Shown here one piece after another: positions 12,835-49,885 of a DNA stretch of 64,000 nt; positions within the stretch are counted from its first letter, which is position 1, and every line of letters starts with the position of its first letter. The position numbers and the translations under genes are program-made. Origin of the DNA: Roseateles puraquae (lineage in GTDB: Bacteria > Pseudomonadota > Gammaproteobacteria > Burkholderiales > Burkholderiaceae_C); assembly GCF_002205845.1 (NCBI RefSeq), contig NZ_NISI01000011.1:62001-126000 (forward strand). Direction: 5' to 3'. The notes beneath the pieces were generated by a model that worked only from the letters and a program-made list of their open reading frames with translations, did no database searches and was not told where the DNA came from.

Positions 12835-14340
12835 TTAGCCGCAAGCCGCCAGCAGGCCCTCCCGGAATGCCACGTAGACGCCGTTGGTCCAGCCAAAGCC
12901 ATCCTGCGTCTCGTACTCGCCGCCACCGCCGGGGCGGTCCTGTGTCACGTCGTACTTCTCCAGCAGCCGGCCGGTGTCCAGGTAGACGCGGTGCACGCTG
13001 GCACACCAGCGCTCGGCGATGTCGCGCGCCAGCGCCGTGTGGCCGTAGCGTGCCAGGCCTTGCGCACCCATCCACTGCAGCGGGGCCCAACCGTTGGGGG
13101 CATCCCATTGCTGGCCGGTGTGCAGCGGCGTGGTCAACAGGCCATTGGGGCCGAGCAGATGTTGCTGCACCTGAGCGGCCAGGGCATGGGCCTGCTCGGG
13201 GCGGGCCAGGCCCAGGTACAGCGGCACGAGGGCGGCCGCCGTCAGCGGCCGGGGCCGTTCGGGATGGCGCCAGTGCAGGTCGGCGAAATGGCCGGCGTCG
13301 CCGCGCCAGAAGCGGGTGTGCAGCAGGGCGCGGCGTGTGTCGGCCCGCTGCTTGAAGTCGCGTGCGAGCGTCGCGTCGCCCTGGCGCGCGGCGCCCTGCG
13401 CGATGGCGCCCTCCAGACCGGCCAGCAGCGCATTGAGGTCGACGGGGGCGATGGCCGTGGTCTCGATGGTGGCCATGTCGGTGGGGTCGGCACACCAGCG
13501 GCCGGAGAAGTCCCAGCCGCTCTCGGCGCCGGCCCGCAGGTCACGCCAGACCTCGGTCGGCACGCGGCCATGGGCCGCCTGCGATGTGAGCACGTCTTCG
13601 CGCCAGCTCTCCTCGCGCGGTGTGCAGCGCTCGTCCCAGTAGCGGTTCAGCAGCGCGCCGTCGGCCAGGCGCAGCACGCGGCGGTGGGCTTCGCCCGGGC
13701 CGACGCGGTCCTCGCCCGCCATCCAGAAAGCGTGCTCGATGCGCAGCGCTGGCAGATGCCGCGCGAAGCCTGCGGCCGGGTCATCGGCGTGCAGCAGCGC
13801 CACCATCTTGTAGAACAACGGCGGCTGCGAGCGGCTCAGCATGTAGCTGCGCGTGGCATTCGGGATGAAGCCGTAGGTGCCCAGCAAGTGAGCGAAGTTG
13901 GCGAGCAGCGCCTCGGCCAGGTCGCGCCGGCCGTCGATGAGCAGGCCCTGCATCGTGAAGTAGCTGTCCCAGTAGTAAAGCTCGCGAAAGCGACCGCCCG
14001 GCACGAGGTAGGGCTCGGGCAGTGGCAGCAGGCTGTCGCCAGGCAGCGCCGTGCGGTGTTCGCGCACCAGCAGCGGCCACAGGGCGCGGATGTGCTCGCG
14101 GATGCCGACGCGCGGCCCTGGCGGGGTGTCGCCATGGCCCGGCAGCGTGAAATGGGCGTGCAGAAAGTCGGCCAGGGAAAAGCCGGGCTCGCCCCGCTCG
14201 GCCTCATAGCGCGCGCGGATGGCGGCCGGTTCGCCGCGCGGGCGGGCGTCGACGAAGGTCTTGCCGTCATCGCACAGGCGGCCCATCTGCACGGCCACGA
14301 AGAGGTCGCCGTAAAGCTCGTAGGGGGTCGGGTCAGGCAT
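12835..14340 (-). CDS. treF: trehalase, glycoside hydrolase family 37 (cytoplasmic type)
   Basis: 501 residues, hydrolysing trehalose to two glucose. Both signatures are present: P-G-G-R-F-R-E-L-Y-Y-W-D-S-Y near residue 117 and Q-W-D-A-P-N-G-W-A-P near 416. The catalytic acid Asp is in E-S-G-W-D-F-S-G-R-W near 272 and the base Glu in E-K-Y-D-V near 460. The glycine-rich G-G-G-G-E-Y loop follows. No signal peptide is present, so it should act on imported trehalose in the cytoplasm. Its start overlaps the end of the MFS gene by 8 bases, which is strong operon evidence. Confidence 0.93.
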   Translation of the reverse strand: MPDPTPYELYGDLFVAVQMGRLCDDGKTFVDARPRGEPAAIRARYEAERGEPGFSLADFLHAHFTLPGHGDTPPGPRVGIREHIRALWPLLVREHRTALPGDSLLPLPEPYLVPGGRFRELYYWDSYFTMQGLLIDGRRDLAEALLANFAHLLGTYGFIPNATRSYMLSRSQPPLFYKMVALLHADDPAAGFARHLPALRIEHAFWMAGEDRVGPGEAHRRVLRLADGALLNRYWDERCTPREESWREDVLTSQAAHGRVPTEVWRDLRAGAESGWDFSGRWCADPTDMATIETTAIAPVDLNALLAGLEGAIAQGAARQGDATLARDFKQRADTRRALLHTRFWRGDAGHFADLHWRHPERPRPLTAAALVPLYLGLARPEQAHALAAQVQQHLLGPNGLLTTPLHTGQQWDAPNGWAPLQWMGAQGLARYGHTALARDIAERWCASVHRVYLDTGRLLEKYDVTQDRPGGGGEYETQDGFGWTNGVYVAFREGLLAACG

Positions 14341-15571
14341 GGCTCAGCCGGGCGCGCAGGCGGGTCAGGGCCACGGCAAGCGCGGCAGTAGGAATGAGAA
14401 GCAGGCCGAAGGCGGTCGCGCCGTCGAAGGCCGCGAACAGGCGGCCGGTGATGAAGCTGCCCAGCGTGCCGCCGAGCGCCGAGAACACGACGATCAGCCC
14501 CGTCATGGCGGCGTGCTGGCGCTGCGGCAGCGCACTCAGCATGGCCGAGTTGATGGCGGGGTAGATGGGTGCCAGCAGCAGGCCCGTCAGCGGCAGCAGG
14601 TAGGCCGCGGGCGGCGCATTGAGCCAGCCGGCGCCCGCCGGCAGCGGCGCGAGGCCACGCGTGAGAGGCAGCGTGGCCAGGATGAGCCCGGCAATGCCCA
14701 CCAGGCAGGTCATCACCACCGCGAACCAGCCCAGCCGGCCGATCACCGCCGCGCTCGCCAGCCGGCCGAGCGCCGTGGTGGCCGGCATGATGACCGCGAG
14801 GCCCACGCTCATCGCGGTGGGCAGGTGCAGCACCTGCTGGTTGAAGCTGGGCAGCCAGGTGGACAGACCCTGCTCGATGAGCACGTACAGGAAGGCCGAC
14901 AGCAGGAACACCACCACAAGGCCGAGTCGCAGCAGTGGCGCCATCGCGAGCAGGTCTTCACGCAGCGTCGTGCCGGGCGACTGGATCGGCCCTTCGTCCA
15001 GTGGGCTCAGCAGCAACAGCACGAAGGCGGCCGCGGCGAGGCCGGCGAGCGACGGGTAGACGCCCAGCCAGCCCGTGCCGGGGCTGTGCGACGCCTGGCT
15101 GAACAGCAGGAAGCCGCCCAGCACGCCGACCATGAACAGGCCTTCGAGCAGGTTCGTGAAGCGCGCATGGCCCGCGCGGTCGTGCGTGACGAGGCCGATC
15201 ATGGAATAGGCGCTCACCTTCACCAGCGCAAACCCGGCGCCGACGGTCGCGAACAGCAGCTTGATGGCCCAGAAGGCCTGCAGCGATGGCATGGCCAGGC
15301 AGGCGGCACCGATGGCGGCCAGCGCGAGCAGCATGGATCGCTTCAGGCCGAGGCGGGGCAGCAGGGAGGCCACGAGGAAGGACGTGATCGCGATCGGCAG
15401 GTCTTTCCAGGCGTCGAGCAGCGCGGCTTGTTCGCGAGGGACGCCGAGGGTCTCGACCACCAGCAGGTTCACGGCGCCGACGCTGTTGAGCAGGGCGCCG
15501 AAGAGCATGTAGGTGAGGGTGATGGCGGCCTTGATGGGCAAGGTGCCTACGGGATGTTTGGCCGCGGTCAT
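14333..15571 (-). CDS. MFS transporter, probable trehalose/disaccharide permease
   Basis: 412 residues with about 12 hydrophobic spans and no extra domain. The order TonB receptor, MFS, trehalase implies that this protein moves trehalose, or a related glucoside, across the inner membrane. That substrate is inferred from neighbours, not from a sequence signature. It overlaps the trehalase gene by 8 bases. Upstream, the 568-bp palindromic element separates it from the receptor gene. No operator like the one before the receptor is seen directly upstream, so expression may need readthrough across the element. Confidence 0.85.
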   Translation of the reverse strand: MTAAKHPVGTLPIKAAITLTYMLFGALLNSVGAVNLLVVETLGVPREQAALLDAWKDLPIAITSFLVASLLPRLGLKRSMLLALAAIGAACLAMPSLQAFWAIKLLFATVGAGFALVKVSAYSMIGLVTHDRAGHARFTNLLEGLFMVGVLGGFLLFSQASHSPGTGWLGVYPSLAGLAAAAFVLLLLSPLDEGPIQSPGTTLREDLLAMAPLLRLGLVVVFLLSAFLYVLIEQGLSTWLPSFNQQVLHLPTAMSVGLAVIMPATTALGRLASAAVIGRLGWFAVVMTCLVGIAGLILATLPLTRGLAPLPAGAGWLNAPPAAYLLPLTGLLLAPIYPAINSAMLSALPQRQHAAMTGLIVVFSALGGTLGSFITGRLFAAFDGATAFGLLLIPTAALAVALTRLRARLSHA

Positions 15572-15597
15572 GTGACTTTGTTGGTTGCTGTGGCCAC

Positions 15598-16165
15598 GAG
15601 CCTTTCGACTCGGTGCACCGTGCCGGGAGTTCGCCCCGGCGGGCGAGTAACTTTCTTCTGTCGCGCCAGAAGAAAGTCACCAAAGAAGAGGCGCTGAACC
15701 GCACACCAGCGGGCTGAGGCGTGAAGCTCACGCGCGAAAACAGCCGCTCGCCCATTGCTCAGAAGCGACCCGCTCCGCTCTCGCCTCCCACCTTGCACGA
15801 GCGGCAGCACCCGCACCTTCACCACGTTCAACGCCGGCTGCACGCCGGGCTCACCAGTGAATGCACCAAGCGCCACGACGCGCCGTCGACGGCGCTTGAC
15901 TTCAACTCGTGAGTTCGGCGTGCAGCCGACGTTGACCGCACAAGCGGTGGATGACTCGGTCTCCGGACAGGGACAGCAACGAGAGCGCAGCGGCTCGCCT
16001 CGGCTAAGGACACGAGCGGCTGTTTTCGCGCGATGTCGGTGGCCGGCCAGAGGCGACTTGCGGTTCAGCGCCTCTCTTTTGGTGACTTTTCTCTGGCGCA
16101 GCAGAGAAAAATTACTCGCCCGCCGGGGCGAATTCCCGGCACGGTGCGTCGAGTGGCAAAGGCTC
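15598..16165. repeat. 568-bp whole-length imperfect palindrome, copy 1
   Basis: The outer ~100 bases form a terminal inverted repeat. The left end runs from GAGCCTTTC through GCACCGTGCCGGGA and TTCGCCCCGGCGGGCGAGTAA to GAGGCGCTGAACCGC; the right end is its reverse complement with a few changes. Inside, further arms pair (GCGCGAAAACAGCCGCTCG left, its complement right). An inner arm GGCTGCACGCCG pairs across the centre. The exact palindrome GCGCCGTCGACGGCGC lies at 15880-15895, within about 6 bases of the midpoint. A second copy of equal length is at 61778-62345. No credible protein is encoded, so a non-autonomous mobile element or structured RNA is more likely. Confidence 0.85.
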
Positions 16166-34554: not shown

Positions 34555-35448
34555 TCAGCCCCGCGCCACCTGGCGCATCTCGGCCAGCAACCGGGCCGCC
34601 TCGCTGCCCTGCACGCGGGCGATGTCGTCCTGGTACTTCAGCAGCACGCCCAGGGTCGACTGCACGGTCGCCGGGTCCAGGCTCACCGCGTTGAGCTCGA
34701 CGAGGGCGCGCGACCAGTCCAGCGTTTCGGCCAGGCCGGGCAGCTTGTAAAGGTCCAGCTGGCGCAGGCCCTGCACGAAGGCCACCACCTGCGCCGCCAG
34801 CTGGGCGTCGATGCCCGGCAGCCGGGCGCGCAGCACGGCCAGCTCACGGTCGGCGTCGGGGTAGTCGAGCCAGTGGTAGAGGCAGCGGCGCTTCACGGCG
34901 TCGTGGATTTCGCGGCTGCGGTTGCTCGTCAGCACCACCAGCGGCGGTGTCGCGGCGGTGATCGTGCCGAGCTCGGGGATGGTGAGCTGGAAGTCGGCCA
35001 GGAACTCCAGCAGGAAGGCCTCGAAGGGCGCATCGGCGCGGTCGAGCTCGTCGATCAGCAGCACGGGGGCTGGCGTGGTGGTCAGGGCCTGCAGCAGCGG
35101 CCGCTCGATGAGGAAGCGCCGCGCAAACAGCTCGTCAGCCGTGCGCTGCGCGCCGCCCGCCTGCGCGAGCCGGATCTCGATCATCTGCCGCGCGTAGTTC
35201 CACTCGTAGGCGGCGCTGGCGAGGTCGAGGCCTTCGTAGCACTGCAGGCGGATCAACGGCCGCTGCAGCGCAGCTGCCAGCGCGCTGGCGATGGCCGTCT
35301 TGCCGGTGCCGGGTGCGCCCTCCAGCAGCAGCGGGCGCGCCAGGCGCAGCGCGAGGAAGGCGGCGGTGGCCAGCTCGCGTGAAGGCAGGTAGCCCTGCGC
35401 CTGCAGCGCGGTGGCGGTGGCGTCGATGCTGGCCGGGGACGGCGTCAT
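34555..35448 (-). CDS. MoxR-family AAA+ ATPase (CoxD-like)
   Basis: 297 residues. Walker A is E-G-A-P-G-T-G-K-T-A near residue 42, Walker B is V-L-L-I-D-E-L-D-R near 132, and the sensor-1 region is V-V-L-T-S-N-R near 175. MoxR ATPases work with VWA partners to remodel or load metal enzymes. The adjacent CoxE-like VWA gene makes the CoxD-type reading the best one, though a general MoxR/VWA pair cannot be excluded. Confidence 0.88.
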   Translation of the reverse strand: MTPSPASIDATATALQAQGYLPSRELATAAFLALRLARPLLLEGAPGTGKTAIASALAAALQRPLIRLQCYEGLDLASAAYEWNYARQMIEIRLAQAGGAQRTADELFARRFLIERPLLQALTTTPAPVLLIDELDRADAPFEAFLLEFLADFQLTIPELGTITAATPPLVVLTSNRSREIHDAVKRRCLYHWLDYPDADRELAVLRARLPGIDAQLAAQVVAFVQGLRQLDLYKLPGLAETLDWSRALVELNAVSLDPATVQSTLGVLLKYQDDIARVQGSEAARLLAEMRQVARG

Positions 35449-37152: not shown

Positions 37153-37206
37153 ACCCGTCGGACTAACCCTGAATCCCGCGGTCTGACGCGCATGTTCCAA
37201 TCGGTT

Positions 37207-37220
37207 TGGAACCGATTCCA
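37207..37220. promoter_or_regulatory. LacI-type palindrome upstream of the secreted beta-helix gene
   Basis: TGGAACCGATTCCA is a near-perfect 14-bp palindrome with central CG, part of a longer symmetric stretch. Overlapping it on the left is TTCCAA-TCGGT-TTGGAA (37195-37211). It lies about 40-60 bases before the ATG at 37260, where an operator over or just downstream of a promoter is expected. It differs in sequence from the ATCGAT operators at 18819, so a different regulator is expected. Confidence 0.6.
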
Positions 37221-37259
37221 AAACCATCCGGCGTTCAAGCCGGCAAGGACGAGACAAGC

Positions 37260-39005
37260 ATGCAAGGCAGGACAGATCGCCGTCCCGGCGCGTGGCTGGG
37301 TTTGATGCTGGCCGGTGCCGTGGCCGCACTGCCGGCGCAGGCTGCCGAGCCCGACTTCGGGCCCCACGTGCACGTGCTGGCGCCCGGCATGCCTGGCATC
37401 CAGCAGCGCATCGACGACATCTACGCGGCGCAGCAGACCAACCATTTCGGCCCGCGGCGTGACGCCATCCTGCTCAAGCCCGGCACCTACCGCGACCTGC
37501 GCATCCCGGTGGGCTTCTTCACGCAGGTGCTGGGCCTGGGCCAGCATCCGGACGAGGTGCACGTCATCGGCGACCTGCGCTCCACCGCCTTCCTGGAGAA
37601 CGACAACGCGACGCAGAACTTCTGGCGTGGCGCCGAGAACTTTTCCGTGACGCCCACGCTCGGCATCGGCGACAACACGCTGCAGTGGGCGGTGTCGCAG
37701 GCCATCCCGTTCCGGCGCATGCACGTGCGCGGCAATATGCGGCTGAACCAGCGCGAGGGCTGGTCCAGCGGCGGGTGGTTCGCCGACGTGAAGGTGGACG
37801 GCGTCGTCAACTCGGCCACCCAGCAGCAATGGCTGTCGCGCAACAGCGCCTGGGGCCGGTGGACGGGGTCCAACTGGAACATGGTGTTCGTCGGCGTGAG
37901 CAACCCGCCCGCGGGCGAATTCCCGACGCCCGGGCAGCGCTTCACCCAGGTCGAGCGCACGCCCCTCGTGCGCGAGAAGCCCTACCTCTTCATCGACGCC
38001 AAGGGCGCCTACGCGGTGCGGGTGCCGGCCCTCAAGCGCAACAGCGTAGGTGTGTCCTGGGCGGGCGGCCGCATCGAACCGGGGCGGACCCTGCCGATCT
38101 CGCGCTTTCACATCGCCCGGCCCGGTGACACCGCGGCGGCGCTCAACGCGCAACTGGCCGCGGGCAAGCATCTGCTCTTCACGCCGGGCGAGTACCTGCT
38201 CACCGAGACCCTGCGCATCACCCGCCCCGGCACCGTGGTGCTGGGCATCGGCCTGCCCACGCTGCGCTCCGACAACGGCCAGCCCCTGGTGCAGACGGCC
38301 GATGTCGACGGGCTGACCGTGGCGGGCCTGTTCCTCGACGCCGGCTTGCAGGACTCGGGCGTGCTGATGGCCGTGGGCGAGCCGGGCAGCCGCCAGCGCC
38401 ATCGCGCTGACCCGATCGTGCTGCATGACCTGTTCTTCCGCATCGGCGGTGCCGCGCCGGGGCAGGTCCACACGGCGCTGCGCATCCATGCGCACGACAC
38501 GCTGGTCGATCACACCTGGCTGTGGCGCGCCGATCATGGCCAGGGCGTGGGCTGGGACAGCAACCCGTCGGCCCACGGCCTCTGGGTGGAGGCCGAGGAC
38601 GTGACCGTCTACGGCCTCTTCGTCGAGCACTTCCAGCAGGCGCAGGTGGTCTGGCGTGGCAATGGCGGGCGGGTGTACTTCTACCAGTCGGAGCTGCCCT
38701 ATGACCCGCCCACGCAAGCCGCGTGGCAGAGCCCCACCGGCCGCGGCCACCCGTCCTACCTGGTCGACCCGGCGGTGACGCGGCACCAAGCCTGGGGGCT
38801 GGGCATCTACAGCGTGTTCCTGCAGCCGGGCGTGGTGCTGGACCGGGCCATCGAGGCGCCGCGGGCGCCGGGCGTGCGCTTTCAGCACATGATCACCGTC
38901 TGCCTCGTGGACAAGGGCAGCATCGAACGCATCATCAACGACGCGGGTGAGCCGGCGCGCTGCCGGGGCGGCAGCAACACGGCAACGCTGAAGGCCTGGC
39001 CTTGA
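37260..39005 (+). CDS. secreted right-handed beta-helix protein, glycoside-hydrolase-like
   Basis: 581 residues from the ATG at 37260, which has GGACGAGA before it. A signal peptide ends at P-A-Q-A-A-E near residue 28. The body is of the pectate-lyase/GH55-like beta-helix type: I-L-L-K-P-G-T-Y near 78, T-Q-V-L-G-L-G near 93, W-G-R-W-T-G-S-N-W-N-M-V-F-V-G near 200 and Y-G-L-F-V-E-H-F near 452. Relatives in actinobacteria and Burkholderia carry misleading names such as adenylyl cyclase or factor 5/8 protein. A carbohydrate-active role is likely, but no catalytic residues can be named. Confidence 0.75.
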   Translation: MQGRTDRRPGAWLGLMLAGAVAALPAQAAEPDFGPHVHVLAPGMPGIQQRIDDIYAAQQTNHFGPRRDAILLKPGTYRDLRIPVGFFTQVLGLGQHPDEVHVIGDLRSTAFLENDNATQNFWRGAENFSVTPTLGIGDNTLQWAVSQAIPFRRMHVRGNMRLNQREGWSSGGWFADVKVDGVVNSATQQQWLSRNSAWGRWTGSNWNMVFVGVSNPPAGEFPTPGQRFTQVERTPLVREKPYLFIDAKGAYAVRVPALKRNSVGVSWAGGRIEPGRTLPISRFHIARPGDTAAALNAQLAAGKHLLFTPGEYLLTETLRITRPGTVVLGIGLPTLRSDNGQPLVQTADVDGLTVAGLFLDAGLQDSGVLMAVGEPGSRQRHRADPIVLHDLFFRIGGAAPGQVHTALRIHAHDTLVDHTWLWRADHGQGVGWDSNPSAHGLWVEAEDVTVYGLFVEHFQQAQVVWRGNGGRVYFYQSELPYDPPTQAAWQSPTGRGHPSYLVDPAVTRHQAWGLGIYSVFLQPGVVLDRAIEAPRAPGVRFQHMITVCLVDKGSIERIINDAGEPARCRGGSNTATLKAWP

Positions 39006-39147
39006 AGCCCGGCTGAGGCCCGGCTGAGGCGCGCTGAGGTGCGACGGCGGTTGTCGGCCTTGTCCGACAGCGGCTTGCGCCGTCCGTCACCTTTCGTCAC
39101 AGCCCTGCGGCCTTAGCCTGAGCGCCTCTCAACCTCAGGAGGTCGCC

Positions 39148-41313: not shown

Positions 41314-41647
41314 GGCGAAAGCTCCAATCATGGGAATGTGTTTGGGGCAACCGAGCGGCTGGCCCAAGCACACCGCGCCTGAGAGGGTGGATTGTCGAAT
41401 CCAATGTAATCACGCCGTAACCACCCGGCTCGTGTGGGTCATGCAAAACCGGAATAACACTATGCCGGCGCGGGCTTACGGCTCACGCCGGTGGCGAAGT
41501 GGGGCTCGGGTTTACGCGAAGGGGGTGTGTAATTCGACGCAACTTTGGGGGACTTTCGGGCAAGGTCATGACGCCCCTGGGGGCCGAACTTCAGTCGGTG
41601 CCAACTCCGTTGTCGCCAACCGGGCGCTGCAGCTCGCCCCGGCGGCA
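41314..41647. other. 334-bp non-coding gap between pckG and the SWIM gene
   Basis: No credible gene is seen. The left 140 bases should hold the pckG promoter. Around 41510-41560 there is a lower-GC stretch (GTGTGTAATTCGACGCAAC) that differs from its surroundings and could be the end of a lost mobile element. A minus-strand frame at 41460-41651 has no recognisable content. The gap marks the left edge of the eroding 41.6-47.8 kb segment. Confidence 0.4.
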
Positions 41648-43739
41648 TCACTCCAGCGGGTCAATCTCTCGCCCCGAGAGTGCCTCATAGGTCAGACGCA
41701 GATGGTTCATCCGCAGCAAGGCCTCGCCGCCCCGGTCGAGCGGCTTGAGTGCAGCAAATGCCGTGAGGCCAGCAGCACTGGCTTGGTCGAGAAGACGCTG
41801 GTGTTGTGCGGGCCAACCGCCGGGGCTTTCGGCGGGCAGGCCGCGTTCGGCGAGCTGCTGCAGGCTTCGGCGTACCTCGGCCAGGGCTGAAGACTCTGTG
41901 CTCGTGCCGACTGCCGCAGCAGGCGCGGAGCCCAGCGCTGCCCAGGCCTGCCGCCAGCGAGCGAGCAGCCCCCCGCCGGCGAGGTTGGCGTCGAAGAAGA
42001 GCGCATCCACCGGCGGCGTCGCCTGCGGGCGGATCAAGCTCAGGGGCTCGGCTACCACAGCGCCTGCGACCTGCTGCAGCTGCGCGACCAGCAACAGGCC
42101 GTCGCTCACCTCACCTGCCGGCAGCGCCTCGATGCGCTCCATCGCATGCTCGGTGAAGCGGTCAAAGCGCAGCTCGGCCATCAGCGCGGCGCCGTCGGCA
42201 TCCCACAGCGGCCAGATCAGCGCCTGGCGAGCGTCGTCGAAGCGGCAAGGGCCGACGCGGCTGGGTTGCAGGAACACCCAGTCCTGCATCGGCGAGGCGC
42301 GCGACAGCAGGCTGCGCTGCGCGCCGCGAGCTGCGAGCAGGTCAGCCCAGCGCGTCCAGGGCTTGAGCTGACTCGCAGACCAGGCGGCCGAATCGGCAGG
42401 CAGGACCGTGGCGCTGGTGCTGTCGCGCGCCGACAGGCGCATGGCTTCGTTGAGGTGCGCGCCGACCAGCGACAGGCGCTGGCCCGTGGCGCGTTGCGGC
42501 GCACCGAGCCCGCTCCAGGGGCCAGACGCCTTGTAGCGGGCGATGGGGTCGAGGCCGCGCAGCGATTCCGGCCGGGCGTCCGTGCATGACATGAAGCCGT
42601 CGCGTGGCGACCAGAAGAGCATCGTCAAGCCCAGATAGCCGCTGGCAGAGCGCCAGGGCCGAGCCCCGAGCCCCAGCACTTCCAGCGCTCCGGTCTCGTC
42701 GTAGCGCGTGCGCGCACGACCGAGCAGCTCCGTCGGCGCCAGGCCCCTGGCAGCGGCCGCCTCCAGCGCGTCGACCAGCGCGTTGGAGAGCGTGATCTCG
42801 TCCAGGAGCCGGTGCTCGTCGGCCCCGCCGGCACGGTCCAGCAGCAACTCGATGTGGTCGGCGATGCGGCGCAGCAGCAACGCAAGGCGGTGGTACTCGG
42901 CCCCCTGCGCCCAGACGGCGAGCGTGGTGTAGCGCTCATGCATGCCGCTCGACAGGTGCGCCAGCCCGAGCTCGACCGACTCGCCGAACAGCCGCCGCGC
43001 ACTCTCCCGCAAGCGCTGCCGCGAGACCTCCAGCGCCGCGGCACCGCTCCCCGCGAGCTGATGGTCCGCCCCTAGATCGAGCGCCTAGATCGAGCGCCTG
43101 CGTGCGCGGCGCAGCTGCCGGCTCCGGCGGCGCCACGTCCTGCCCCAGTGCGCGGCGCAAGGCCAGCACGGCAGCGACGCGGTACTTCTCGATCTGCGGC
43201 AGCTCGACATCGGCGATCAGGTTCGCCAGGCCGCCGCCCATGTAGCGCAGAGTTAGACGCGGGCGCTGGAGCGCGAGCACGAGATGCTTCTCGCCGGTCA
43301 CCTGCAGCGCCTCGCCCTCGGCGAGATCGTGCAGGTACTGCCACGCCCAGCGATAGCCGGCCTTGCCGGCATGCTTGACCAGCTCCGCTGTCGGGATGGC
43401 GAGCAAGTTCTCTCGCAAGGGCGTAAGCGGGTCTTCAACGGGTGCGGGCGCCTCGCCGGCCCGCTGCTTCAGGCCGATGGCCGCTGCCAGGATGTGCTGG
43501 CACACACCCGCGGCCGGGCAGTCGCAGCTCGCCTGCGCCGGACCGCGGGCATCAAAGCGGATGTGCTGCTCACCCACCTTGACGACAACCTCGGTGTCGC
43601 TCTGCTGCTCAATCTCAACGGCCAGCCGCTCCAGGTCCTTCTGCGCGCGGCGCAGCAGGCCTCGGTTGGCCAGCGCGGCAAATCCCTCATCGTCGAAGCG
43701 GGTCAGTTGCTCCTGCAGTTGCGCAAGCAGGCGGCTCAT
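41648..43739 (-). pseudogene. SWIM zinc-finger protein (YehQ-like), frameshifted by a 13-bp duplication
   Basis: Two frames make one ~692-residue protein. The N-terminal part (start 43739, overlapping the VWA stop as ATGA) has the SWIM motif C-D-C-P-A-A-G-V-C-Q-H near residue 75. After A-L-D-L-G-A it leaves frame at 43071-43096, where CCTAGATCGAGCG is present twice in tandem. Removing one 13-bp copy gives a continuous reading A-L-D-L-G-A-D-H-Q-L-A-G into the C-terminal frame, which runs to 41648. As it stands only a 268-residue fragment is made. The family partners with VWA and DUF5682 proteins. Confidence 0.85.
43071..43096. repeat. 13-bp tandem duplication CCTAGATCGAGCG x2
   Basis: Two exact copies (43071-43083 and 43084-43096) directly adjoin inside the SWIM gene. 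Thirteen is not a multiple of three, so gain or loss of one copy switches the downstream reading frame. It looks like a recent slippage-type event. Confidence 0.95.
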
Positions 43740-44857
43740 GAGATCACCTTGACCAGCCACTGCGCCAGCCGCTGCGGCGTCAGCGCAGCGATCTCCATGC
43801 CGCAGGCCGCGAGACGCTCGGCCATCTGCCGGTCATAGACCGGATGGGCATTGCCGTCCAGCGCCGCGAGGCCGAGCATGCGCACGCGTGCCTCGGCCAG
43901 CTGGCGCACGGCACGCACCAGCTCCGACGGCGCCGCGCCCTCGCAGAAATCGGTGACGAGCACGAGCACCGTGCGGTGCGGTACGTCCACGAGTTGGCTG
44001 CAGTAGCGCACGGCCTTGCCGATGTCAGTGCCACCGCCGAGCTGGGCCTGCATCAACACCTCGACGGGGTCGTCGGCATGCTCGCTGAGGTCGACGACGT
44101 TGGTGTCGAACAGCACCAGCTTCACGCGGAAGGCCGGCAGCGCCGCGAAGATGCCGGCCATGACCGCACTGTGGATGACCGAGTCCACCATGCTGCCGCT
44201 CTGGTCGACGCAAAGGATGATGTCCCAGGGCAGGCGGCGGCTGTTGCGTTCGAAGAACTTGATCTGCTCGACGACGAGGCGCGCCCGCTCGGTGTCGTAG
44301 TGCTTCAGGTTGGCGCGCAGCGTGCCGCGCGGGTCGAAATTCTGCGCGACGGCCATCGGCGAATGGCGGTTGCGGTTCAGGCGGCCGGACAGCGCCTGAC
44401 GCACCTCGGCTTCGAGCTGGCGCCGCAGCTCGTCCACCACCTGGCGGATGATGCGCCGGGCCAGCTGCAGCACATCGCCATGCAGGTGGCCGCGCAGCGT
44501 GAGCAGGGTGCGCAACAGCTGCTGGTTGGGCTCCAGTCGTTCCAGGGTCTGCGGGTCGGTGACGAGCTGCGTGAGCCCGTAACGGTCCAACGCATGCTTC
44601 TCGATGATCTCGACGGTGTCCCGCGGGAAGAGTTCCCGCACCTCGCCGAGCCAGGTGACGAGGTGGGGCTGCGAAGCGTCCAGCGAACCCGGGCCGCGCT
44701 CGCCGTCCTCGCGCAGGCCGCGGCCCTGGTACTCGCGGCCATAGAGCTGGTCCAGCGCGAGGTCGCGCCGCTTGTCCTGCCCCTGCAGGCCCTGCGGGCT
44801 CAGGGACCGCTCGGCGTATCGGCCGAGCACGAGGCGCCAGCGGTTCAAGGTGCTCAT
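43736..44857 (-). CDS. VWA domain protein (YehP-like)
   Basis: 373 residues from the ATG overlapping the DUF5682 stop (ATGA). The N-terminal half is helical (W-R-L-V-L-G-R-Y-A, later F-D-P-R-G-T-L-R-A-N-L). The VWA domain has the complete metal site: D-Q-S-G-S-M near residue 216, the T of G-G-G-T-D-I-G near 278 and T-D-F near 310. Gene order DUF5682, VWA, SWIM equals E. coli yehM-yehP-yehQ. In that set a MoxR ATPase (YehL) precedes; here it is missing. The VWA frame is intact, but its partners are damaged. Confidence 0.85.
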   Translation of the reverse strand: MSTLNRWRLVLGRYAERSLSPQGLQGQDKRRDLALDQLYGREYQGRGLREDGERGPGSLDASQPHLVTWLGEVRELFPRDTVEIIEKHALDRYGLTQLVTDPQTLERLEPNQQLLRTLLTLRGHLHGDVLQLARRIIRQVVDELRRQLEAEVRQALSGRLNRNRHSPMAVAQNFDPRGTLRANLKHYDTERARLVVEQIKFFERNSRRLPWDIILCVDQSGSMVDSVIHSAVMAGIFAALPAFRVKLVLFDTNVVDLSEHADDPVEVLMQAQLGGGTDIGKAVRYCSQLVDVPHRTVLVLVTDFCEGAAPSELVRAVRQLAEARVRMLGLAALDGNAHPVYDRQMAERLAACGMEIAALTPQRLAQWLVKVIS

Positions 44858-47202
44858 GACTGCAGCCATCCGGACAGGCCATCCGCGCGCAGGCGCGCCA
44901 GCAGCTGCGCGGAGCGCGCAACGTGGGCCTGCACCTCGGCAGCATCGAGGTCGTGGCGTACCAGGCGGCCGAGATCGCCCTGGCCGTGCAGGCCGGCCAC
45001 CGCCTGGGCAATGCGGTCGGTCTCCTTGGGCGTCATCTCGGCGAAGGCCAGGCGCAGCTCGGGCAGCACGGCGACGAAAGCCGCTTCGTCCCACTCGCGC
45101 AGCCGGGCATCGAGCGTGTCGAGCAGGCGCGGCTGCTGCCAGGCGGCTTCGCGTGCAGTGCTGAGCAGCCCGCGCAGGAAGGCCACGGCCTCGACCGGCG
45201 TGACGCCGCCTTGCAGGTGCCCCGCCAGCACGGTCTGCAGGCCCGCCTCGTCCAGCCGGCCAGCGCCGTGCCGCAGACCGGCGGCTGCCCCGCGGATGAG
45301 GGCGAGGTCGTGCCGGGCCTGCAGGTGGTCGAGCAGGTCCCAGAACAGGCCGGCGTCCAGCGCCTGGCCAGCCGCACTGATCAGCAGTTCGCGCAGCCGT
45401 GACAGCGCCTCGATGAGCCCGCTGCCGTCGCCCGCCGCCCCCTGCAGGCTGCGACCGAGAAAGAGGGCGCGCTGGTAGCTCGATGCCAGCAGCGCCGGTA
45501 CCTCGGTCAAGGCACGGGCCTCCAGCGGCTCGCGCGACTCCCACAGCAGGCCTAGCACGCTGCAGGCGGTGGCGACGGACTCGAAGGCCGCGTCCTCCGC
45601 GACCACCTGCACCAGCGTCGCCATGACGCGCCGGACATGGTCATGCAGCCCGAGCACGCAAGCCTGCACCAGCAATGCTGCCGCCGCACCGGCATGGCGC
45701 GGTTCATCGCCGTCGACGAGGCGCTGCAGCCGGGCCTCGAAGCGCTGCGCCACGGCCAGCGGCAGCGTCGTGCCGTAGACCGAGGCCTCGATGAGGGCGG
45801 CCTCGGTGCTCGCCGAGAAGCTGTACTCCCACTGCTCCTGCAGCTTGCCCAGGCCCAGCCCGTTGGCGAAGTCCGGCCCCGACACCCGCGTCGCGAGCGG
45901 CACGCCTAGCAGGGTCACGCCATGCAGCAGCCGGCTGGTCAGGCGGTGATCGGGGCGGCGGTAGAGGTCCAGCACGAGGCGGCGCGGTTTCGGGTCGTCG
46001 ATCTTCAGGCGCTGGCGGCGCGCGCGGGCTTCGAAGTCGCGCAGCAGCGGTGGCCGGTCGGTGCCGGGCGGCACCTGGCCGACGGCCTGCCCTGCAAGGC
46101 GGCGGCGCGTGACGGCCAGCACCAGCATCCCCTCGGCGTCGAGCTCGCCCTTGACGAAGCAGCTCGTCACGGCATCCAGCAGGTCCTCGCGCAAGGGCGC
46201 GTCGCGCCCGCGCAGCGCGGCCAGGCGCAGGGCCTGCTCGTAGGCCGCAGCGAGCGTAGGCATAGGCAGTGGCAGCCGGTGCTTCTCGCGCAGCTCGGCG
46301 GCGATGTCGAACAGCAGGGCGAGCGTCTGCTCCTGGCGCAGACGCGCACCCAGCGTCACGCCGGCCTTGTCGCGCTGGAGCATGCGCTCCCACAGGCCTT
46401 GGTGCCAGGCCGGCGAGGTCATGCCGGCGCCGTAGCCGTTGAGGCGATCCAGCCGGTCCAGGCCATAGCGGATGAGAGCTGAGGCCTGGTCGCCGATGGC
46501 CGCCGTCTGGACCGTCGGCCGCTTCGTGCCGGCCGCCACCAGCGCGGGCAGCACGACCGCGTGGAAGCCACCGACGACGGCCAGCACCGGGCCCGCGCCG
46601 GGCGACCGCTCGGCAAGCGCCTCGCGGACGGCCGCCGCCATCTCGGCCTCACGGGCGAGGGTGCCGTCGGCGCGCAGCTCGTCCTCGGTGTGCTCGCTGC
46701 GCGAGAGCTGGCAGTAGGCCACGAGGTCGGCCATGTGCGCCGTGGTGCCGCGCGTCAGCGCCGGGGCCTCGAAGAGGTGTTCCCACAGCTCCTCGTGGTC
46801 GCGGCAGCCGAGCTGGCGGGCAAGGTGCGCGAGGTACTGGCTGCGCTGCAGATGGCGTTCGTCCGGGCCGGAGCGGGCGAGCTCATCGTCATGCTCCTGC
46901 GGGTCCAGGCTGGCCTGCTCGGCCACGTCGAGGTCGATGAAGCGGGCCGGCAACCCGTGCGTCGCCGCGTGGCGCAGCGCGACCAGCTCGGGCGAGTGGT
47001 CGCAGAACGGGTAGTAGGCCGCATACCGGCGCGCAGGCCGCTCGCCCTGCGCCTTGAACACGCAGTAGCCGTAGACCGCCAGCGGCATGCGGGCCTGCGC
47101 ATGCGTGAGCTGCGGGACCAGCCGCGTGAAGCTGCGCGGCCCTTCCACGAGCACCGTCGACACCGGCCGTATCGGGGTCACGGTATTTCTGGATCGTTGC
47201 AA
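44854..47202 (-). CDS. DUF5682 family protein (YehM-like), 5'-truncated
   Basis: Up to 782 residues. The segment T-V-L-V-E-G-P near residue 16 corresponds to the early V-L-I-E-G-P of this family. The preceding ~35 residues, which normally hold an I-R-H-H-G-P-G-S motif, are absent. Instead the frame enters hsdR-derived DNA and the first start-like codon is a TTG inside that foreign piece. The rest (Y-A-A-Y-Y-P-F-C-D-H-S-P-E near 65, V-G-G-F-H-A near 213) seems full length. It stop-start overlaps the VWA gene. Whether it is still expressed is doubtful because its own promoter and start are gone. Confidence 0.7.
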   Translation of the reverse strand: MQRSRNTVTPIRPVSTVLVEGPRSFTRLVPQLTHAQARMPLAVYGYCVFKAQGERPARRYAAYYPFCDHSPELVALRHAATHGLPARFIDLDVAEQASLDPQEHDDELARSGPDERHLQRSQYLAHLARQLGCRDHEELWEHLFEAPALTRGTTAHMADLVAYCQLSRSEHTEDELRADGTLAREAEMAAAVREALAERSPGAGPVLAVVGGFHAVVLPALVAAGTKRPTVQTAAIGDQASALIRYGLDRLDRLNGYGAGMTSPAWHQGLWERMLQRDKAGVTLGARLRQEQTLALLFDIAAELREKHRLPLPMPTLAAAYEQALRLAALRGRDAPLREDLLDAVTSCFVKGELDAEGMLVLAVTRRRLAGQAVGQVPPGTDRPPLLRDFEARARRQRLKIDDPKPRRLVLDLYRRPDHRLTSRLLHGVTLLGVPLATRVSGPDFANGLGLGKLQEQWEYSFSASTEAALIEASVYGTTLPLAVAQRFEARLQRLVDGDEPRHAGAAAALLVQACVLGLHDHVRRVMATLVQVVAEDAAFESVATACSVLGLLWESREPLEARALTEVPALLASSYQRALFLGRSLQGAAGDGSGLIEALSRLRELLISAAGQALDAGLFWDLLDHLQARHDLALIRGAAAGLRHGAGRLDEAGLQTVLAGHLQGGVTPVEAVAFLRGLLSTAREAAWQQPRLLDTLDARLREWDEAAFVAVLPELRLAFAEMTPKETDRIAQAVAGLHGQGDLGRLVRHDLDAAEVQAHVARSAQLLARLRADGLSGWLQS

Positions 47203-47440
47203 AGATCAGCCCCGGCCCTTTGCGCCGCGCCAGCGCCTTCACGCCGTTGGCGCTCTCGGCCACCTCCACCACCTCGCCGGTCAGCGTGGCGGTGACCGAC
47301 AACTGCCCTTGCAGGTCCTTGCGGTCGGTGACGACGATGGCTTCATTGGCGGCCTCATCGGCGGAGGCAGCCTCGAGCCGCCAAAGATTCCTGAGCCCAG
47401 CCTGGCTGCGGTGTTGGACGGTCATCGCAGCCTCGGCGCT
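47165..47440 (-). pseudogene. hsdR fragment (type I restriction subunit R)
   Basis: A minus-strand stretch reads A-I-V-V-T-D-R-K-D-L-Q-G-Q-L, then L-T-G-E-V-V-E-V-A, V-K-A-L-A-R-R-K-G-P-G-L-I-F-A-T-I-Q-K-Y-R-D. This is the helicase motif Ia/Ib region of HsdR-type translocases. Both ends are cut: it runs into the DUF5682 gene at about 47165 and loses similarity near 47440. Only ~90 of about 1000 residues remain. No hsdM or hsdS is in the window. Confidence 0.7.
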
Positions 47441-47450
47441 CCTGGGTCGC

Positions 47451-47818
47451 CGTTCCATGGCACCTACCGCCAAATCAACCTGCACGGCACCGCGGCTTTG
47501 CTGGCTTGGCAGCAGATTCCGGAAGCGATGCAAGAGTTGTTTGACAACGTCGCCGCCATGCGGGCCGAAGCGGATGCGGGTCGACTGGCGGCTCGCGTGG
47601 CGACGTTGTTCATGGACTTCCTGCGCATCCATCCGTTCCTGAACGGCAACCGGCGTACTGCGATGGCGTTCGCAACGGCACTCTGCGAACGCCAAGGGTT
47701 TGTGCTGGACTGGTCGAGCCTCAGTCGCAGCGAGCTGTACTACGCGGTGCGTTGCGCAGCGGCCGGGCATTCGCGCGTCCTGGAGGCGGCGCTACGGTCT
47801 CGCTTGAAGCGGCACTAA
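47451..47818 (+). pseudogene. Fic/DOC domain protein fragment
   Basis: About 120 residues. The AMPylation motif is intact: I-H-P-F-L-N-G-N-R-R-T-A near the middle, with the catalytic His. The upstream G-T-Y-R-Q-I-N-L is the usual early Fic segment, but what lies before it is hsdR-antisense or unrelated DNA, so the N-terminal helices are gone. No start codon with a ribosome site precedes the domain; the nearest in-frame ATG, at 47528, lies inside it. Fic genes often sit within type I restriction operons, which fits the hsdR piece beside it, but the two are on opposite strands. Confidence 0.65.
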
Positions 47819-48078
47819 GGCGAGACCTCTGCGGCCCAACGGCCCCGGTGGCAGATCGAACTTCCGAAGGGGGCGTTCGGCCTAGTTCCATTGCAGTGGC
47901 GCGGATCTCGGCTGGGTGACGGTACCCAAAGGGCAGCCTGTTCGAAATCAGTCAGGGCGCCAGCAAGACCACATAAAGATCGCCTGCGAACAGGCTTGAG
48001 CCACTCGCGGACTGCCTGGCTGCTGACCCGGACGAACATCACTGTCGTTGACGGCTCTCCTCGTCAACCCGCCCCGCC

Positions 48079-48555
48079 TCACGCCTCCCCCTCCCCCACC
48101 TCATTCAGCAGCCCCAGGCACTCATCAATCACCGCATGCAGCCGAGCCACCCGCTCAGGCCCCATGCGCTCGTTGAACCCTTGCTGCGCCCGCTGCCAGG
48201 CCTTGCGCGCCTGGGCCTGCATGGCTTTGCCGGCTGGGGTGGCGTCGACCTGCCGGCTGCGGCCGTCGTCGCCGGGGGTTACCTCGACCCAGCCTTGAGC
48301 GATCAGGGGCTGCAGGTTGCGGGTGAGGGTGGAAGCGTCCATCTCCATCACGGCGGCCAGTTGGCCGGGGCGCACGGGGCCGAGGCGCACGATGTGGGAG
48401 AGCAGCGAGTACTGCGTGGTCTTGAGGCCCGCGCTGCTGACCTCGGCATCGAACAGCTGGCTCACGCGTCGTGACAGCTGGCGCAGCTTGAGGCTGCTGC
48501 AGCCTTTGGGCGCTGTGGCTTCGGCCGCGGAAAGGGCGTGCTTGGCTGGGAGCAT
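48079..48555 (-). CDS. MarR family transcriptional regulator
   Basis: 158 residues: helix-turn-helix near residues 55-85 (P-G-Q-L-A-A-V-M-E-M-D-A-S-T-L-T-R-N-L) and the wing G-D-D-G-R-S-R-Q-V near 95. It is divergent from an MFS gene with a 49-bp gap that holds two palindromes, so it most likely represses both genes and is relieved by a small ligand of the transporter. Confidence 0.9.
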   Translation of the reverse strand: MLPAKHALSAAEATAPKGCSSLKLRQLSRRVSQLFDAEVSSAGLKTTQYSLLSHIVRLGPVRPGQLAAVMEMDASTLTRNLQPLIAQGWVEVTPGDDGRSRQVDATPAGKAMQAQARKAWQRAQQGFNERMGPERVARLHAVIDECLGLLNEVGEGEA

Positions 48556-48589: not shown

Positions 48590-48604
48590 CTTTAAGGCGT
48601 GCCC

Positions 48605-49885
48605 ATGATCGCTCAACAACTGGCCGGGGCCTTGGGCCGGCGTGGTGTTCATTACGGCTGGGTGGTGGCGGCCGTCACCTTCCTGGCGATGCTGACCACG
48701 TCGGCGGCGCTGGGCCTGCCCGGCGCCATGCTGCAGCCGCTGAGCCGGGAGTTCGGCTGGTCGACGGATCAGCTGGCGTCGGTGTTCGCGGTGCGGTTTG
48801 CGCTGTTCGGCCTGCTCGGGCCCTTCGCGGCGCTGTTCATCGCGCGCTTCGGGCTGAGCCGCATCATGGTGGTGGCGGCGAGCTTCATCGCGATGGCCAT
48901 GGGCTTGGCGACGCAGGTCACGCAGTTGTGGCAGCTGTTCGTGCTGTGGGGCCTGGTGCTGGGGTGCGGCACGGGGCTGACGGCGCTGGTGCTGGGCGCG
49001 ATGGTGGCCAACCGGTGGTTCACGCAGCACCGCGGCCTGGTGGTGGGGCTGTTTGCCGCGAGTGCGGCCACGGGGCAGCTGATCTTCCTGCCGGCGGCCG
49101 CTTGGATCATTGAACACCTGGGCTGGCGCTATGCGGTGCTGCCGGTGGTGGTGGCGTGCATCGCGGTGGCGGTGATGGCGCTGCTGTTCGTGCGCAACCA
49201 GCCGCGCGACGTGGGCCTGCGGCCGGTGGGCGAGCCGGCGGATGCTCCGCTGGAGGCGCCGCTGGTGGCCGCGCCGCTGGACTTTCGTGCGCCGTTCAGG
49301 GTGCTGGCCGAGGCGGCCCGGCACCGCACCTTCTGGATCCTGGCGGCCACCTTCTTCATTTGCGGCTTGAGCACCAACGGCCTGGTGCAGACGCATTTCA
49401 TCTCGCTGTGCGGCGACAACGGCCTGACGGCCGTGCCGGCGGCGTCGGTGCTGGCGATGATGGGCGCCTTCGACCTGGTGGGCACGACGCTGTCGGGCTA
49501 TCTGTCGGACCGCTTTGACAACCGCAAGCTGCTGTTCTGGTACTACGCGCTGCGCGGCCTGTCGCTGTTCTGGCTGCCGTATTCGACGTTCACGCTCTAC
49601 GGCCTGTCGCTGTTCGCGATGTTCTACGGGCTCGACTGGATCGCCACCGTGCCGCCCACGGTCAAGCTGGCGGCGCAGGCCTTTGGCAAGGAGAAGGCCG
49701 GGCTGGTGTTCGGCTGGGTGTTTGCCGCCCACCAGCTGGGTGCCGCCGCGGCGGCCTACGGCGCGGGGCTCACGCGCACCCTGCTGCTCACCTACAACCC
49801 GGCCTTGTTTGCGGCCGGTGCGGCCTGCCTGGTGGCGGCAGTGCTGGTGATGCGCATCCGCCGGGCGGCGCCGGCCGCCGCCTGA
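48605..49885 (+). CDS. MFS transporter under MarR control
   Basis: 426 residues, about 12 spans, of the oxalate/formate-antiporter-like (OFA/MCT) subgroup: it starts R-R-G-V-H-Y-G-W-V-V-A-A-V-T-F and has F-G-W-S near residue 48, typical of that group. These carry organic anions or drugs. The ATG at 48605 is used; a GTG six bases upstream is an alternative. The paired MarR suggests an inducible efflux or uptake of an aromatic or organic acid, which is an inference. Confidence 0.88.
   Translation: MIAQQLAGALGRRGVHYGWVVAAVTFLAMLTTSAALGLPGAMLQPLSREFGWSTDQLASVFAVRFALFGLLGPFAALFIARFGLSRIMVVAASFIAMAMGLATQVTQLWQLFVLWGLVLGCGTGLTALVLGAMVANRWFTQHRGLVVGLFAASAATGQLIFLPAAAWIIEHLGWRYAVLPVVVACIAVAVMALLFVRNQPRDVGLRPVGEPADAPLEAPLVAAPLDFRAPFRVLAEAARHRTFWILAATFFICGLSTNGLVQTHFISLCGDNGLTAVPAASVLAMMGAFDLVGTTLSGYLSDRFDNRKLLFWYYALRGLSLFWLPYSTFTLYGLSLFAMFYGLDWIATVPPTVKLAAQAFGKEKAGLVFGWVFAAHQLGAAAAAYGAGLTRTLLLTYNPALFAAGAACLVAAVLVMRIRRAAPAAA

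Follow-up and report, generated by a model that had tools for sequence, protein, structure and literature searches.

A 13-bp tandem duplication splits a SWIM gene in a probable remnant of a yehILMPQ-type operon in Roseateles puraquae

What might explain why a SWIM gene of Roseateles puraquae is broken by an exact 13-bp tandem duplication, when the remainder of its coding sequence is still open? The gene lies on the minus strand (43739-41648, 2092 bases) of a 64,000-nucleotide stretch of contig NZ_NISI01000011.1, referred to here as the window, and the duplication puts its two halves out of frame. The original prediction allowed two answers, a recent event or a repeat acting as an on/off switch. 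We consider it most probable (approximately 0.85), from sequence comparison, that the locus is what is left of a five-gene operon that was horizontally acquired and has been inactivated, and that its SWIM gene has suffered a slippage frameshift. The locus as found would then be an ordinary pseudogene within the remains of an operon, and the intact operon type, known in E. coli as yehILMPQ, is more interesting than its break. The features of the locus are listed in Table 1.

Table 1. Features at and around the split SWIM gene, in window coordinates
Feature	Position	Strand	Basis
6.5-kb block differing from the nearest relative compared (G014)	41550..48067		Flank alignment
SWIM C-terminal frame: open over 478 residues, not in frame with its own start	41648..43084	-	Frames, alignment
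SWIM N-terminal frame: ~220 native residues (PF04434), then ~46 out-of-frame residues and a stop	42936..43739	-	Frames, Pfam, alignment
Exact 13-bp tandem duplication, frame-shifting	43071..43096 (period to 43099)	-	Repeat search
VWA (CoxE-like, YehP-like), full length by alignment	43736..44863	-	Pfam, alignment
DUF5682 (YehM-like), ~45 N-terminal residues lost	44854..47173	-	Pfam, alignment; junction ~47160-47174
HsdR fragment (type I restriction, SWI2/SNF2 PF18766), 62 residues	47174..47359	-	Pfam, PADLOC
Fic-domain fragment, open to 47818 (PF02661 47408-47683; motif HPFLNGNRR)	47408..47818	+	Pfam, PADLOC

The duplication and the split gene

The repeat is as it had been described: CCTAGATCGAGCG is present as two exact head-to-tail copies, 43071-43083 and 43084-43096, and the doubled unit occurs at a single site in the 6.06-Mb genome. 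The period of 13 bases extends to 2.2 copies, and a search of the window that allowed one mismatch gave no third copy of the unit, where 0.04 would be expected by chance. Among exact tandem duplications with a period of 10 to 60 bases, of which the 187,520-base contig has three, it is the longest; 10 first-order Markov controls contained 0 to 3 each, all with a period of 10 or 11. Other repeats in the window are an exact 11-base tandem duplication (GCCCGGCTGAG, 39007-39030), which closely follows the plus-strand frame 37206-39005, and a 76-base unit repeated 2.5 times in tandem at 1589-1781, its copies 92% alike. One slippage event leaves just such a pair of 13-base units. The single ancestral unit would have begun and ended with CCT, the two triplets lying 10 bases apart, and would have been copied once through replication slippage on this 3-base microhomology, a mechanism that is plausible because CCT flanks the single unit.

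The N-terminal half of the gene matches the Pfam SWIM profile PF04434 at 19.9 bits (cut-off 19.6), and no Pfam profile matches the C-terminal half. The prediction that removal of one copy gives a 692-residue protein agrees with the arithmetic and with the length of the relatives' genes, 688-746 residues when measured from the point that aligns with the window's start (from about residue 11 in L012). These relatives are eight loci (L005-L012), the yield of one genome-contig scan. In all eight, the two SWIM halves share one open frame, and none has an exact tandem duplication at the corresponding point; the duplicated unit aligns to a single conserved LDLG stretch in seven, the stretch being absent from L012. 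Since the relatives' genes are unbroken and lack the repeat at this point, the duplication is, by sequence comparison, the derived state, and the earlier claim that it breaks the SWIM frame holds, the break being a derived event. The SWIM gene of L012 contains a 12-base exact tandem duplication elsewhere in the gene. A locus in genome G040 (L003), from the same order, was kept outside the count of eight, having come from a separate search and being itself broken. In a stretch of contig C12 of that genome (L022, approximately 14259-15714), a relative of the SWIM C half is also broken, its coding sequence continuing in another frame. Searches of this 18-kb stretch recovered neither the N-terminal part of that gene nor the other genes of the operon, and the G040 genome gave no DUF5682 match.

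Could the break be an error of sequencing or assembly, the organism itself carrying one copy? The assembly is a draft of 43 contigs, and one copy would yield a protein of the expected length, but a 26-base repeat is shorter than the usual reads and is no homopolymer, by general knowledge, and the truncation further upstream, described below, is independent of the repeat, which leaves this explanation highly improbable.

The intact operon type and its remnant

In L006 the SWIM gene follows genes for a DUF4132 protein, a MoxR ATPase (AAA_5), a DUF5682 protein and a CoxE-like VWA protein, in that order, and the same order is found in all seven relatives with enough contig (the query L006 and L007-L012; L005 was not counted because a contig end cuts its locus). 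SWIM is the terminal gene of the operon in the relatives. The E. coli K-12 genes yehI-yehL-yehM-yehP-yehQ encode the same families in the same order, and all five are annotated as coding, as is yehK. The MoxR of L006 is 48% identical to YehL and its DUF4132 protein is 26% identical to YehI over 343 residues. Identity of the DUF5682 protein to YehM is 29% for L011 and 31% over 742 residues for the window, and that of the VWA protein to YehP is 49% for L011 and 45% over 368 residues for the window. The SWIM N half of the window is 30% identical to YehQ over 82 residues, this similarity being confined to the surroundings of the zinc finger, and BLAST at E 0.01 aligned no part of the C half to YehQ. 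The operon type was encountered in the Proteobacteria relatives, E. coli and Georgenia (L012). At the head of the cluster in E. coli K-12 MG1655 (L081, 2411-5270), yehH, beside yehI, is annotated as a pseudogene, so members of the yeh cluster have been lost elsewhere too.

Unlike K-12, the window has no DUF4132 gene or close MoxR gene that could be found, the start of its DUF5682 gene is missing and its SWIM gene is split. The Pfam match of the window DUF5682 begins at profile position 11, corresponding to about residue 47 of L006, and consequently the stretch VRHHSP[AG]CAW, present in the DUF5682 protein of all seven relatives (IRHHSPACAR in YehM), is gone. A search of the organism's own genome, rated 100% complete, did not find DUF4132, although this search had no positive control; with the DUF4132 and MoxR proteins of L006 as queries there was nothing at 1e-4 in the window's contig (C43), whereas 6/6 relatives were found. 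The one weak MoxR match in the genome is 34% identical over 168 residues (E 2.9e-4) and lies at 34831-35361 of the window. Of the features that would mark a yehILMPQ-type operon, the window has a CoxE-like VWA gene next to the SWIM gene; there is no complete DUF5682 with RHHSP, its homology starting past the motif, no adjacent cognate MoxR and DUF4132 genes, and no SWIM gene in a single open frame. The window locus thus counts as a remnant of a yehILMPQ-type operon and not as a working example of one.

The promoter-proximal end of the operon is cut within DUF5682, where the gene now adjoins the HsdR and Fic fragments. A fusion protein of HsdR and DUF5682 is ruled out, as the two are in different reading frames. 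PADLOC assigns the Fic fragment to PDC-S04 (E 3.3e-17), and a type I enzyme model to the HsdR fragment. A source of the two fragments elsewhere in the genome was sought in a DNA search, which returned the region itself alone, 40 of 157 first-look candidates being scored. The GC content of the HsdR/Fic part (47161-48067) is 0.647, compared with 0.707 for the whole block 41550-48067. A search for a promoter of the cut operon gave 0 sigma-70-like sites between 46900 and 48100, a count that carries no weight because shuffles likewise expect 0.

The proposal that the repeat is a reversible phase switch, in which the SWIM protein is turned on and off as the 13-mer slips between a single and a double copy, can be weighed against the state of the operon. 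The repeat is an exact tandem duplication of non-triplet length within a gene, as phase variation demands, and the SWIM frame downstream of it is undamaged. However, there are just two copies, none of the eight relatives has tandem copies at the same point (a repeat shared with relatives being a supporting and not an absolute criterion), and without a MoxR or DUF4132 gene that could be found, or the start of DUF5682, SWIM alone is not the known gene set. The switch was not borne out, and we regard it as very unlikely. A variant, in which the trimmed DUF5682-VWA-SWIM set is still used without a MoxR of its own and the repeat switches SWIM from full length to a short zinc-finger form and back, is exceedingly unlikely. 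Where a clean frameshift is followed by an intact downstream frame, the rest of the operon should be checked before a switch is called.

Conservation of the remaining frames

How far has the remnant decayed? Substitutions were counted at columns invariant among four relatives and averaged over leaving out each of five (L007-L011) in turn; of the eight relatives, L005 and L006 were dropped because they nearly duplicate L011, and L012 because it is distant. The SWIM N half has 6.5% substitutions at such columns (relatives 5.1-12.8%), the SWIM C half 9.6% (6.5-15.5%), VWA 5.7% (0.4-6.6%) and DUF5682 8.4% (4.4-11.5%). Third-position GC is 0.84 and 0.85 in the two SWIM halves, compared with 0.91 for VWA and DUF5682; SWIM is also the lowest of the three genes in each of the six relatives for which this was measured, though very narrowly in L008, so its lower value is no sign of decay. 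Against a reading of decay stand the full-length VWA gene, the translatable state of the remaining frames and the absence of wider decay at invariant columns. The earlier argument that the C-terminal frame is undamaged, and the event therefore recent, stands in so far as there is no excess loss of conserved residues, but this says no more than recent. The truncated DUF5682 is preserved as well as the split SWIM gene, and preservation is therefore no argument for a switch: an undamaged remainder is common to both. These values fit damage that is recent.

Conserved residues kept in both SWIM halves would also be expected if the split gene worked as two polypeptides, the C-terminal part being made by reinitiation, for example at a TTG at 43012. 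The frames do overlap, this C-frame TTG lying ahead of the N-frame stop at 42936, but the gene is unsplit at this point in 8/8 relatives and the upstream end of the operon is cut, and we find this alternative improbable. In the preferred reading, an operon remnant with a slippage frameshift, the frameshift would have been tolerated because the ATPase and the upstream end had already been lost, or because there was no selection here.

Origin of the block

The remnant lies in a block that is absent from the nearest relative compared, G014, whose PEPCK protein is the closest (98%) among the genomes compared. Identity to G014 is 94% up to 41549 and returns at 48068 with 92%. The left flank ends at 41517-41554 in four of five other stretches from the genus, and at 41465 in the fifth (L067). 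Neither DUF5682 nor the SWIM C half is present in any of the 19 other genomes of the genus searched, and DUF5682 was found in 8/200 genomes drawn from the order, the window's own counted. The DUF5682 family search also matched in the control genome, Deinobacterium chartae.

In G014 (L062, 4485-9715) and G005 (L063, 33-5064) the slot beside PEPCK carries other genes, by eye slipin-like, RtcB-like and HNH-like frames, and the G014 slot includes a tRNA-Tyr gene. The slot DNA of G014 is partly present beside PEPCK in G005; searches of the window's contig and of four other stretches of the genus (L064, L067-L069) did not recover it. Its presence beside PEPCK in G005 alone indicates a variable slot, in which either content may be ancestral. 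Acquisition of the block from outside the genus appears to be the simplest reading of this distribution, with repeated loss also possible; the operon remnant would have been acquired horizontally into a slot that is filled by other DNA in the nearest relative. Site-specific integration was considered and rejected: 41500-41620 and 48010-48120 have no 9-mers in common, direct or inverted, and there is no tRNA gene in the window. Beyond the block, a frame at 48599-49885, MFS-like by eye, contains approximately 140-150 bases (49309-49447) that are missing from G014, where the frame has 386 residues, compared with 428 in the window.

Relation to known systems

The five-gene ddrTUVWX operon of Deinococcus deserti, described in the accessible parts of two papers as radiation-induced via IrrE/DdrO and of unknown function (PMC5552922, PMC8072749), is by its description reminiscent of this operon type. 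Unlike in the window, its SWIM and CoxE-like VWA proteins are encoded at opposite ends of the operon, and the middle genes are named just "conserved protein" in the accessible part of PMC5552922. In the portion of PMC7159879 at hand, MoxR-vWA pairs are described as chaperone couples, of which some belong to conflict systems, and the MoxR-vWA-centric ternary conflict systems defined there have a MoxR ATPase and vWA core, as in this operon type. The main text of PMC7159879 makes no mention of SWIM, DUF4132, DUF5682 or Yeh, and the match of the L006 MoxR to bpMoxR is sub-threshold (24.8 bits against 27).

When the five L006 operon proteins were searched with PADLOC, SWIM alone was matched, weakly (PDC-S62, E 4.5e-4, residues 43-103), and NCBIfam matched the MoxR and VWA proteins alone, far below the cut-offs. 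Literature searches found nothing on DUF5682, nothing on DUF4132 together with MoxR, and no stated operon function in the accessible parts of the literature on yeh genes, MoxR-vWA and SWIM-VWA operons. In the accessible parts of two further papers, yehP appears in an expression list (PMC3589462), and yehQ appears, as a deletion strain, in the strain tables of a butanol-tolerance study (PMC6442406).
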